Assembly: GCF_002563635.1 (NCBI RefSeq)
Contig: NZ_PDIZ01000003.1
Span: 248,001-312,000, forward strand
Length of the DNA: 64,000 bases
Origin: Bacillus sp. es.036
GTDB lineage: Bacteria; Bacillota; Bacilli; Bacillales; Guptibacillaceae
Direction of reading: 5' to 3'
In this document: one piece after another, positions 57,002 to 59,617 of the stretch
Layout of the letters: each line of letters opens with the position of its first letter
How positions within the stretch are numbered: position 1 is the first letter of the stretch
Made by a program: the position numbers and the translations under genes
Notes under the pieces: model-generated
What the model was told of the DNA's origin: nothing
Seen by the model: only the letters and a program-made list of their open reading frames with translations
Databases searched by the model: none

Positions 57002-57613
57002 ATGTTGGAATTTCTGATTCAATTCCTGAAAGAGCTTGGCATCTGGGGTCTTTTAATTAGCAATGCGCTTGAAGCGTCATCTTTACCTTTCCCTGGTGGT
57101 ATGATGACGTTAACGTATGGTTACTTATTAAATGCTTCCATTATTGAAATGGTCGGTTTTGCATTTCTGACAAGCGTAATCTATACCATTTTTAGTTTTA
57201 TTCCTTATGGGATCGGTTTGAAAGTTAAGGATAAAGTAGAGAAAAAGCTTAAGAAGAAGAAAGTAGAACGTGTACAAAAGTGGTTTAGAAAGTGCGGATC
57301 ATGGAGTATTGCGATTACACGCCCGCTTGGTGTAGGAAATTATGTGTCCTACGTATCTGGTATGAGTAAAGTAAAGGCATGGGTATTTGCCGTACTTACC
57401 TTTGTGGGGATCTTTCCTTGGACAATTGCGATGTTGTGGATCGGAAAGAATGGAAATATCAAATCAGTCCAAGCCATTTTTGGAAGTATTCAGAAATACG
57501 TCTTCTTAATCTTAATCGTGGCAGTTATTGGATTCATTGGGTATCACTACTATCAAAAAAGGTGTAAAATTGAACACAAGAAACAGGTAATCAACACAGA
57601 TCAAACGTCATGA
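57002..57613 (+). CDS. DedA/VTT-family membrane protein
   Basis: A 203-residue membrane protein. EASSLPFPGGMMTLTYGYLL is the conserved acidic/proline re-entrant motif. The middle has FRKCGSWSIAITRPLGVGNYVSYVSGM, the R-x-x-P-G-x-R-like region, here with RPLG. It ends in a helix and a basic tail. AAAGGAGAT precedes the ATG. DedA proteins scramble or flip phospholipids such as undecaprenyl phosphate or phosphatidylethanolamine. The gene for the putative selenoprotein starts 19 bases downstream, suggesting co-expression. Confidence 0.88.
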   Translation: MLEFLIQFLKELGIWGLLISNALEASSLPFPGGMMTLTYGYLLNASIIEMVGFAFLTSVIYTIFSFIPYGIGLKVKDKVEKKLKKKKVERVQKWFRKCGSWSIAITRPLGVGNYVSYVSGMSKVKAWVFAVLTFVGIFPWTIAMLWIGKNGNIKSVQAIFGSIQKYVFLILIVAVIGFIGYHYYQKRCKIEHKKQVINTDQTS

Positions 57614-57632
57614 CAAGTAAGGAGAGGTTACT

Positions 57633-58193
57633 ATGGATCAATTAACTTATCAACTTGAAATTCCAGAAAGTAAAAATGTTACGCTTGCAGAGGTTATACA
57701 TCATAAGAAATCAATGGTTGTATTTGTACGTCATCTTGGCTGACCCGTTTGTCGTGCTTATCTTACGCAGTTGCGTAAGCGCGTAAATGAGATTGAGAAG
57801 GAAGGCTTTCAAATTATAGCGATTGCTCCTTCTAATGCCACATATATCGGTCAGTTCACAGAAGCCTTCGGAGAGTTTCCTTTTGTTATTGCGGGAGACC
57901 CGAAAAGAGAAGCCTATCGAGGGATGGGTCACCATACAATGCCGAAGTGGAAATTACTTGGACAAGCAGCCATTGGGTTCATCACTCGTAAGATGGATGG
58001 ATTTATCCCAAAAGAGCAAAAGAAGAAAGACTTTGTTCTTAAATCAATGAAAACTCAAGATGTTTATATACAAGGTGGGACATGGATTTATGATGATAGC
58101 GGGAAGCTAATTTGGCATCATATTGATCAGTCTCCGGAGGATCATGCAAAAATCGACTCTGTCATTGATGTGTTAAAAAAGTATAACGCATAG
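57633..58193 (+). CDS. Putative selenoprotein, SelL/AhpC-TSA-like redox protein (in-frame TGA as Sec37)
   Basis: From ATG 57633, with AAGGAGAGG at 57619-57627, a 186-residue product is encoded if TGA 57741-57743 is read as selenocysteine. The context is FVRHLG-U-PVCRAYLTQLR, which places U37 exactly where AhpC/TSA-like proteins of this type have the first active-site Cys of a CxxC; Cys40 is the second. The reading frame is intact for 150 codons on both sides combined, with a thioredoxin-fold end (GGTWIYDDSGKLIWHH). A hairpin follows the TGA at SECIS distance. It follows dedA by 19 bases. If the genome lacks selA/B/C/D it is a nonsense-mutated gene instead. Confidence 0.75.
57762..57779 (+). 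promoter_or_regulatory. Candidate bacterial SECIS hairpin
   Basis: CTTACGC and GCGTAAG form a perfect 7-bp stem with loop AGTT. The loop begins 25 bases after the TGA and has G in its second position. This fits published bacterial SECIS constraints (roughly 16-37 nt to the apical loop, a G in its first two bases). Confidence 0.6.
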
Positions 58194-58194
58194 C

Positions 58195-58229
58195 AAAATC
58201 GCTTCTAACAATGTTAGAAGCGATTTTTT
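58195..58229 (+). terminator. Terminator of the dedA-selenoprotein operon
   Basis: AAAATCGCTTCTAACA and TGTTAGAAGCGATTTT form a 16-bp stem with a single-base loop followed by more T. Confidence 0.92.
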
Positions 58230-58267: not shown

Positions 58268-59617
58268 TTACTGATTAACGACTTTTCTACGAATAGCAAA
58301 TGCTGATCCGGCTACAGCGAGGGAACCTACTGTAATCCAAAGAGCTGTTAGGTCAGATGACTGCTCACTCGCACCACCCATACCTGTCTTAGGCATATCA
58401 CCAGGCATTGCTTCTCCAGCGAACTTATCTGGCATTTGTTTCACAATCGCACCACCTAGAGATTCACCTACACCAAACATGAAAGCATAACCTTCGCGGA
58501 ATTGATCTGTGGATGCTTTAAAATCACCAGACATATATGATTCAAATGATCCGACAACTTGTTCTTCGTGAGCCATAAGTGCTTTAGTTGCTGCATCAGT
58601 TGGAAGGTTTTCTTCTGTTGCTGTTCCAAGGAAAGTACCGAAATTTTCAGGGAAAGTTGTTAAGAGACGTTCTTTAGCCATTTTCATCGTTTCTTCGTCT
58701 TCAGAAAGAGAGGCAACGACTAGATCAGCTTGTGCAGCGATATGATCTTCCTGCCAGATTTTTTCAAACTGAGCTGCACCTTCATCTCCGTAAATTGAAC
58801 CGATTGCAGCTTTAAAGTCAGCGGTGTTTCTGTCTTCCGCCCAGTTTACAAAGTCGTAGTCTTCTGATTGATCATAACCTTTTTCAAGACCAATGGAAGA
58901 AAGAGCAAAGTGTTCAGACGCCAGACTGTTTAGCGTTGATCGTAAATCGGCAGCTGGTGTATCAGCTTTCGTGTTTTCGAATTTATCAGGCATCTGCGTT
59001 ACGATCGCACTCGATAATGCTTTACTAATTGCAAACATATGCTTATGTCCTTCTCGGAATGTGGTATAAGCCTCTTCGTAATTTCCTTCCGTATATTCAT
59101 CAAATGTTGTTAGAACTTGGTCTTCATGGACTTCTAAAACATCTGCAGCAGCGTCTTTTGGAAGATTTCCTTCAGTTGCCGTATCAAGGAAAGTGGAGAA
59201 TTCATCAACAAATTCATCGACTTCTTTCTCAGCTTCTTTTCGAAGTTCTGCATCATCTTCTGTTGCCGCTTTTACGAAATCAGTAGAATAATCATTGTGC
59301 CCTCTAAAAATGTCATCAAATTGTTGCGCGGCTTCATCGCCATAAACAGATGCGATCGCTGGAGTCATATCAGCTGCGTTTTGATCGAGTGCTTCTGTCA
59401 CTTCTTCAGCATCCTCAGTGCCATCATACGATTTCGTCATCGACGTAACAGCTAGTACAAAATGTTCGGATAAGAGTTGATCAAGTGTGGCTCGTAGATC
59501 GGCAGCTGGTGTGCTTACTGTTGGTTCTGGGTCAGCTGCACCTGCAACTGTTGGAAACAATAGGGTTAGCCCTAGAGCCGGAACCATTAATTTTTTAAAT
59601 GCTTTTTTCATGTTCAT
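58268..59617 (-). CDS. Sortase-type anchored surface protein with two internal repeats
   Basis: A 449-residue exported protein. The signal peptide ends near Ala27 (VAGAADPEP). Two homologous segments of about 180 residues (about 36-216 and 220-398) share PAADLR-TL, SEHF-L, YGDE, GNLP/ENLP-DAA, HE-QV, FREG and QMPDKF. The C-terminus has MPKTGMGG, a membrane helix and a basic tail, which is a variant LPxTG cell-wall anchor. Regular His and acidic residues (SEHF, HEDQV, HEEQV) in helical context could bind metal, as in ferritin-like bundles; this is speculation. I do not recognise the repeat family. GAGGAGCG lies upstream of the start. Confidence 0.83.
   Translation of the reverse strand: MNMKKAFKKLMVPALGLTLLFPTVAGAADPEPTVSTPAADLRATLDQLLSEHFVLAVTSMTKSYDGTEDAEEVTEALDQNAADMTPAIASVYGDEAAQQFDDIFRGHNDYSTDFVKAATEDDAELRKEAEKEVDEFVDEFSTFLDTATEGNLPKDAAADVLEVHEDQVLTTFDEYTEGNYEEAYTTFREGHKHMFAISKALSSAIVTQMPDKFENTKADTPAADLRSTLNSLASEHFALSSIGLEKGYDQSEDYDFVNWAEDRNTADFKAAIGSIYGDEGAAQFEKIWQEDHIAAQADLVVASLSEDEETMKMAKERLLTTFPENFGTFLGTATEENLPTDAATKALMAHEEQVVGSFESYMSGDFKASTDQFREGYAFMFGVGESLGGAIVKQMPDKFAGEAMPGDMPKTGMGGASEQSSDLTALWITVGSLAVAGSAFAIRRKVVNQ

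Follow-up and report, generated by a model that had tools for sequence, protein, structure and literature searches.

We analyzed a stretch of 64,000 nucleotides of Bacillus sp. es.036 (the window) and conclude that positions 57633-58193 very probably encode a cytosolic peroxiredoxin-like (Prx-like) selenoenzyme, in which selenocysteine (Sec) at residue 37 would be inserted by means of a hairpin with an AGUU loop. Computed support for the Sec reading consists of a conserved UGA, a covarying hairpin, the presence of selA, selB, selC and selD in the genome, and co-occurrence of the gene with selA. The TGA and the hairpin are not due to chance: every one of the 70 homologous loci has the TGA, and 69 of them have an AGTT loop, the remaining one AGGT. 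A preliminary description, made from the letters of the window, had proposed a candidate selenoprotein here, and every check of this proposal that could be computed came out in its favour. Of the two results that it had named as refuting, missing sel genes or a Cys codon in isolates of the species, neither turned up, the codon comparison covering other species. The features are listed in Table 1.

Table 1. Coordinates of the predicted selenoprotein gene (Sec37 gene), its elements and its upstream neighbour in the window.
Feature	Position	Strand	Evidence
Predicted selenoprotein gene; Prx-like redox protein of 186 aa (AhpC-TSA_2 / SelL-related) with TGA read as Sec	57633..58193	+	frame, Pfam, NCBIfam, dN/dS
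In-frame TGA, predicted Sec37, start of the U-P-V-C motif	57741..57743	+	TGA in 70/70 homologous loci covering the region
Cys40 codon, second residue of UxxC	57750..57752	+	sole Cys of the window protein; Tyr in 8/69 orthologs
Bacterial-type SECIS hairpin, CTTACGC-AGTT-GCGTAAG	57762..57779	+	perfect stem of 7 bp with AGUU loop (57769-57772)
Ribosome binding site AAGGAG, 8 nt upstream of the selenoprotein ATG	57619..57624	+	direct sequence reading
Terminator-like hairpin after the selenoprotein stop, 15-bp stem, loop AAT, then T's	58195..58227	+	-18.6 kcal/mol
VTT/DedA-type membrane protein, upstream of the selenoprotein gene	57002..57613	+	19-nt gap to the selenoprotein ATG; ordinary TGA stop

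The selenoprotein frame begins at the ATG, is interrupted by a single TGA, and closes with a TAG ending at 58193, as previously described; the strong ribosome binding site that had been noted before the ATG was located as well. Three Pfam families matched the window protein above their cut-offs, namely AhpC-TSA_2 (PF13911), the best match (53 bits, gathering cut-off 27), Redoxin (45 bits) and AhpC-TSA (PF00578; 44.6 bits, cut-off 26). Since a signal sequence is not obvious in the protein, it is predicted to reside in the cytosol. It had been expected that standard gene calling would truncate the gene, and the list of open reading frames indeed holds a truncated form, 57771-58193, that starts at a TTG inside the hairpin.

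No conserved operon partner was seen in the short flanks of the 70 loci: the VTT/DedA-type gene adjoins nine of them (flanks of roughly 1-1.5 kb, or 5 kb at L045) and is a neighbour in part of the genus only, and the downstream protein was found in 12. The terminator-like hairpin is absent from the list of a consensus terminator scan. On the minus strand, 58268-59617 encodes a protein of 449 aa in which, judged by eye, a similar region occurs twice, and which has no Pfam match; its C-terminus consists of MPKTG, a hydrophobic stretch and RRK, a tail that presumably resembles a sortase anchor.

Orthologs were sought with a 15-row profile in 397 genomes of the order, the best candidates (up to eight) being scored in each genome. 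At the family level, the Sec37 gene was found in 14 of the 15 genomes searched, all 14 from one genus, with a single TGA at the same codon in every case. At the order level, a full-length ortholog was detected in 68 of 397 genomes (E <= 8.3e-46), again with the TGA at the same codon in 68 of 68. Together with the fragment L109 and the locus L045 (a contig named Bacillus), these 68 genomes make up the 70 loci, which come from 15 families and nearly all from different species genomes; throughout, the TGA occupies one and the same codon position, in the context R-H/Y-x-G-U-P. The loci L054 and L058 (from the genomes that also gave L035 and L036), L046-L052 (repeats of genus loci) and L110 (N-terminal half missing) were left out before counting; the named records L038-L044 are in alignment A1 and outside the sets of 69 and 70 rows, and L109 is outside the 69-row sets. 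The 56-row alignment A2 was obtained by removing near-identical rows and two rows with a stop sign in the segment. Apparent extra TGAs in two genomes (G347 and G328) and a TAG/TAA in two others (G387 and G366) were rejected as candidates, as they are, or fit, terminal stop codons (G387 by position alone).

The preliminary description had advised aligning the TGA with Cys homologues. In the resulting comparison, which was made with other species, the TGA was conserved and no Cys ortholog was found in congeners or among the best candidates (up to eight per genome) of the 397 genomes of the order, a search that could miss a divergent one; the next stop-free matches were a C-terminal fragment at 54.6 bits and a distant Cys protein with CPLC at 43.8 bits. 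Likewise, no close Cys form was found among the best candidates (up to eight per genome) of 398 genomes of the phylum, in which the top stop-free match scored 48.2 bits. Sec/Cys pairing, which is a detection aid and not a requirement, was thus seen for the Sec37 family with distant Cys relatives only.

The hairpin was found as it had been described, with a perfect 7-bp stem, an AGTT loop and a start 18 nt past the TGA; the loop lies 25 nt past the TGA. The limits printed for bacterial SECIS elements in PMC13188914 include a loop of 3-9 nt, a stem of 4-16 bp, a G at loop position 1 or 2, a UGA-to-loop distance of 16-37 nt and a minimum free energy (MFE) <= -7.5. The window hairpin falls within this range, as had been claimed (4-nt loop, 7-bp stem, G at position 2, 25 nt, -8.7). 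The 22-nt hairpin piece alone has an MFE of -8.7 kcal/mol, equalled by none of 200 shuffles; when 60 nt from the TGA are folded, the upper five pairs and the AGUU loop are kept, the remainder is rearranged, and two of 200 shuffles are as stable. Across the 70 loci, all seven pairs are standard in 64, the isolated hairpin reaches -7.5 kcal/mol or lower in 69, and the best 60-nt structure contains the complete hairpin in 51, a partial one (3-6 pairs, the window among them) in 13 and none in six.

The distance of the hairpin from the TGA is identical in the 69 aligned orthologs, with compensatory changes in the stem. Over these sequences (64 distinct), 98.7% of cells are paired versus 15.4-60.7% for slid versions of the hairpin, and three pairs have changes on both sides versus zero for slid versions, except two at +3. 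Covariation was 0.256 compared to 0.170 for shuffled alignments (0 of 500 as high), and the number of pair types was not above that of shuffles (6 vs 6.0) in the 69 sequences. Silent sites are frozen inside the hairpin: Gln is encoded by CAG in 69 of 69 cases, Thr by ACG in 33 of 33 and Ala by GCG in 34 of 34, compared to 291/630, 137/520 and 132/609, respectively, elsewhere in the same genes. For 12 congeners, the silent difference was 0.32 in the first 15 codons after the TGA, 0.55 before the TGA and 0.65 in codons 16-148. A whole-genome search with a SECIS model (150 of 1305 candidates scored; selD is part of the model) gave a correctly spaced TGA at the Sec37 gene and at selD only. The other hits (<=17.1 bits, one being the reverse strand of the Sec37 gene) were rejected because no suitable TGA frame was found on the hit strand; one hit, L146, has a TGA frame on the opposite strand.

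The host genome comprises 4.34 Mb in three contigs. Among named records, its close relatives include Pseudalkalibacillus hwajinpoensis, P. spartinae and Alkalihalobacillus macyae, besides members of Bacillus. All four genes for which a genome search had been advised were found: selC, selB, selA and selD are clustered at C1:1228113-1235850, each above its cut-off (tRNA-Sec 59.4 bits, with anticodon TCA by ARAGORN; selB 360.7, selA 564.8 and selD 409.9 bits). The selD gene itself contains one in-frame TGA, in STKGG-U-GCK, and 25 nt further on a stable hairpin whose loop region includes AGTT. An ABC transporter of the phosphonate type (PF12974 binding lipoprotein, permease and ATPase; L009:11606-14007, on C1 of the same genome) lies between selB and selD/selA, and our guess is that it may import a selenium compound.

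Sec use had been called uncommon in these bacteria; this does not hold for the order, in which selA was above the cut-off in 181 of the 397 genomes sampled. The selA gene was present in all 68 genomes with a full-length ortholog (E <= 2.1e-138). B. subtilis, which served as a control for the selA search in the host genome, gave no match. The co-occurrence has a hypergeometric log10 p of -26.9, uncorrected for shared descent and overstated by it, yet the orthologs span 15 families. No selenoprotein is tabulated for more organisms in PMC5029168 than the alpha subunit of formate dehydrogenase. Its gene is free of in-frame TGA codons in all 15 genomes of the family (G000-G014); therefore, Sec in this family serves other proteins.

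A lone in-frame TGA would look alike if a Cys-type gene had acquired a nonsense mutation or a sequencing error, and decayed copies do exist in two selA-positive genomes: L109 (G185) keeps the TGA and the hairpin and ends early, and L110 (G290) is a C-terminal piece only. Because these two genomes contain fragments only, the Sec37 gene is dispensable. However, a pseudogene is hardly credible for the window, given that the TGA occurs in every locus covering the region, nearly all of them from different species genomes, and that no Cys version was seen among the best candidates (up to eight per genome) in the order. Moreover, dN/dS among 12 congeners is 0.10 before the TGA and 0.04 after it, versus 0.69 past the stop codon, whereas alternative frames within the gene give 1.06-4.2. 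Purifying selection thus acts on both sides of the TGA, and therefore both sides are one protein. The same data bear on translation from the internal TTG at 57771, at which the mechanically derived frame begins and which would leave the upstream part untranslated in this frame. Conversely, the TTG codon is part of the hairpin, the two other frames before the TGA have dN/dS of 1.5-2.5, R33, G36, U37 and P38 are invariant in 56 sequences, and the ATG at 57633 has a good ribosome binding site; we give this start just as little credence as the pseudogene.

Read-through of the UGA as another amino acid, for example Trp, without Sec is marginally less improbable and still very unlikely: selA accompanies every full-length ortholog, although 216 of the 397 genomes have no selA above the cut-off, a SECIS-like hairpin is present, and the aligned residue is Cys in the CxxC relative 9us9. 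A change of the code to TGA = Trp was ruled out, as the gene directly upstream stops at TGA. The reading of the product as a selenoprotein leaves two kinds of chemistry, and there is only a little less than an even chance that its main activity is that of a peroxidase and not of a thiol:disulfide oxidoreductase, or vice versa. The Redoxin and AhpC-TSA matches favour peroxidase chemistry, the UxxC motif and the match to 9us9 favour chemistry of the dithiol type, and a one-Sec enzyme fits the Cys-less lineage described below. Ordinary Prx chemistry is disfavoured by the position of Sec37 outside the column of the catalytic Cys of the thiol peroxidase 2cx3: that Cys aligns with Cys40, and Ser is in the Sec37 column; therefore, Sec37 is not at the usual peroxidatic place of Prx.

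Sec is conserved more strongly than the second Cys of UxxC. The 56-sequence alignment has R33, G36, U37, P38, Q46, P66, P83, D89, P126, D143, G148, D165 and P168 invariant, and Cys40 is not included. The preliminary description had assigned the TGA to the first position of a U/C-x-x-C motif; this is true of the window protein (UPVC), but the second Cys is not essential, since the Cys40 column contains Tyr (UxxY) in 8 of 69 sequences, with UxxC in the window protein and in 61 of the 69. The eight Tyr rows are seven of one genus (g47) and L106 from another family. All seven g47 sequences have zero Cys in the aligned region; when their frames are read back to the preceding stop, six are fully Cys-free, and L097 has one Cys, in an N-terminal stretch ahead of the start that agrees with those of its relatives. 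In L106, the single Cys lies 10 residues N-terminal of Sec. Because the Tyr rows fall in the g47 genus and in the family of L106, Cys40 appears to have been lost at least twice; this is our reading of the tree, in which L106 is a long branch. With Cys40 replaced by Tyr and the aligned protein Cys-free in seven sequences, Sec can apparently suffice by itself as the redox centre, and in members without Cys40 it would have to act without its usual internal partner.

SelB recognises the SECIS loop. Here, the AGUU-loop hairpin behind the UGA would recruit SelB-GTP with Sec-tRNA-Sec, and Sec would be inserted at position 37, opening the active-site motif RHLG-U-P-V-C. Residues of CxxC motifs have catalytic roles, and bacillithiol is a thiol reductant. 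The Sec37 selenolate would attack a peroxide or disulfide substrate. Cys40, if present, would resolve the intermediate by forming an internal selenenylsulfide, a step that would have to be left to an outside thiol (thioredoxin or bacillithiol) in the Cys-less lineage; with these roles, the nucleophile Sec would be essential and the resolving residue Cys40 optional. We tentatively propose, at somewhat worse than even chances, that the Bacillales Prx-like family is Sec-obligate, with Sec as the sole catalytic residue and the resolving Cys lost at least twice, and that Sec in it has escaped the usual Sec/Cys exchange. As part of this proposal, selABCD of Pseudalkalibacillus may be kept mainly for the Sec37 enzyme, because formate dehydrogenase is TGA-free and the SECIS search gave only the Sec37 gene and selD. 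It should be noted that G001, a genome of the same family as the host, retains selA without a Sec37-gene ortholog, which speaks against this proposal.

Other TGA-bearing Prx-like genes were encountered in the searches. In L161:222-1550 (minus strand, G097), a Prx-like domain with an in-frame TGA (RGTW-U-PNC; AhpC-TSA 110.6 bits in the Pfam scan) is joined to a methyl-accepting chemotaxis signalling domain (MCPsignal 90.5 bits). Rows resembling it, judged by frame length and TGA alone, occur in G126, G249, G270, G290, G385 and G045; a Sec-bearing redox chemoreceptor would be unusual. Small Prx-like TGA frames with the motifs UPNC, UGLC or UPFC were found in L159 (G083), L162 (G029), L163 (G059) and L160 (G045), and their sequences suggest several other Sec-type redoxins in the order. 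The loops, read by eye, are AGTT in L160, AGTTC in L159, GGTCC in L161 and GGTTC in L163, and L162 differs (GTG loop). L113 (G761) and L114 (G629) each contain two adjoining TGA-bearing Prx-like genes, with SSG-U-ASC next to RHLG-U-MLG or RHLG-U-LLC; these are the top-scoring relatives from outside the order among the best candidates (up to eight per genome) of the 398 genomes of the phylum.

According to PMC13188914, nearly all selenoprotein families have Cys versions, and Cys/Sec pairing is a main detection route; searches for such pairs depend on Cys homologs (PMC1088965, PMC13188914). Because no Cys form was seen, the 69-sequence clade would be weakly visible to pairing. The family may be overlooked since pair searches need Cys homologs and a TTG start is offered inside the SECIS hairpin. 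We infer that in many Bacillales genomes the Sec37-family genes probably go unnoticed or are cut short, as no Cys form was seen and nothing scored above the cut-off of NF040769, the closest NCBIfam model, in 358 genomes of the order. If the Sec reading is true, these relatives of Bacillus are a system for asking why Sec resists replacement, and the Cys-less members are a clean test of one-Sec redox chemistry.

The preliminary assignment to SelL/AhpC-TSA-like proteins stood as to AhpC-TSA, with AhpC-TSA_2 the best Pfam match, and had to be loosened to SelL-related as to SelL: the top NCBIfam match, NF040769 (SelL-related redox protein), scored 94.9 bits, under its cut-off of 120, with the window protein covering 5-172 of 173 positions. 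The second match, thiol peroxidase, scored 19 bits versus a cut-off of 140. All 56 scanned clade members match NF040769 (E <= 0.001), but none of the 358 order genomes reaches 120 bits. A full-length Cys-type SelL-related protein with YYGCPLC does occur in the order (G356), at 84.1 bits to NF040769 and 43.8 bits to the Sec37 family. A plasmid search gave a single distant match, from Thermomicrobium (33%).

The best solved relative by sequence is prostamide/prostaglandin F synthase (PDB 9us9; E 1.7e-9), which we take to be of the PRXL2 type. The first Cys of its GCVVC aligns with Sec37; however, 9us9 is a Cys protein, and the likeness implies no shared substrate. The TxxC/TxxU pattern of classical peroxiredoxins, with Thr or Ser three residues ahead of the peroxidatic Cys/Sec, is not seen: all 70 loci have Sec in that column. 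Prx-like thiol:disulfide oxidoreductases with UxxC/UxxU (PF00578) are described as a known selenoprotein family in PMC13188914 and PMC9312934, and they are among the selenoproteins counted in PMC1794560 and PMC5029168 (28 organisms in the latter); a count of three Bacillales selenoproteins appears in Zhang 2006. The Sec37 family is like these oxidoreductases in its membership of the AhpC/TSA family, in Sec being first in U-x-x-C, in the window protein and 61 of the 69, and in the bacterial SECIS past the UGA. It is unlike them in forming a separate Bacillales clade, in having no Cys ortholog seen, and in the loss of the second Cys in 8 of 69 sequences. In the tree, the 69 sequences form one clade (support 100/99) against 10 Sec-containing Bacillota rows and five Cys rows as outgroups, with some outgroup branches long, bootstrap not settled, and the Cys relative of G356 left out. 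Prx-like proteins with Sec from other Bacillota (L113, L114, L116 and others) share the TGA in the same column, and L113, with U-M-L-G, is likewise without the second Cys, but they score at most 69.0 bits to the Sec37 family, and those in the tree lie outside the clade. With no claim of its being unpublished, the Bacillales clade is, on the sequences compared, best filed as a distinct variant of the known Prx-like / SelL-related redox selenoproteins.
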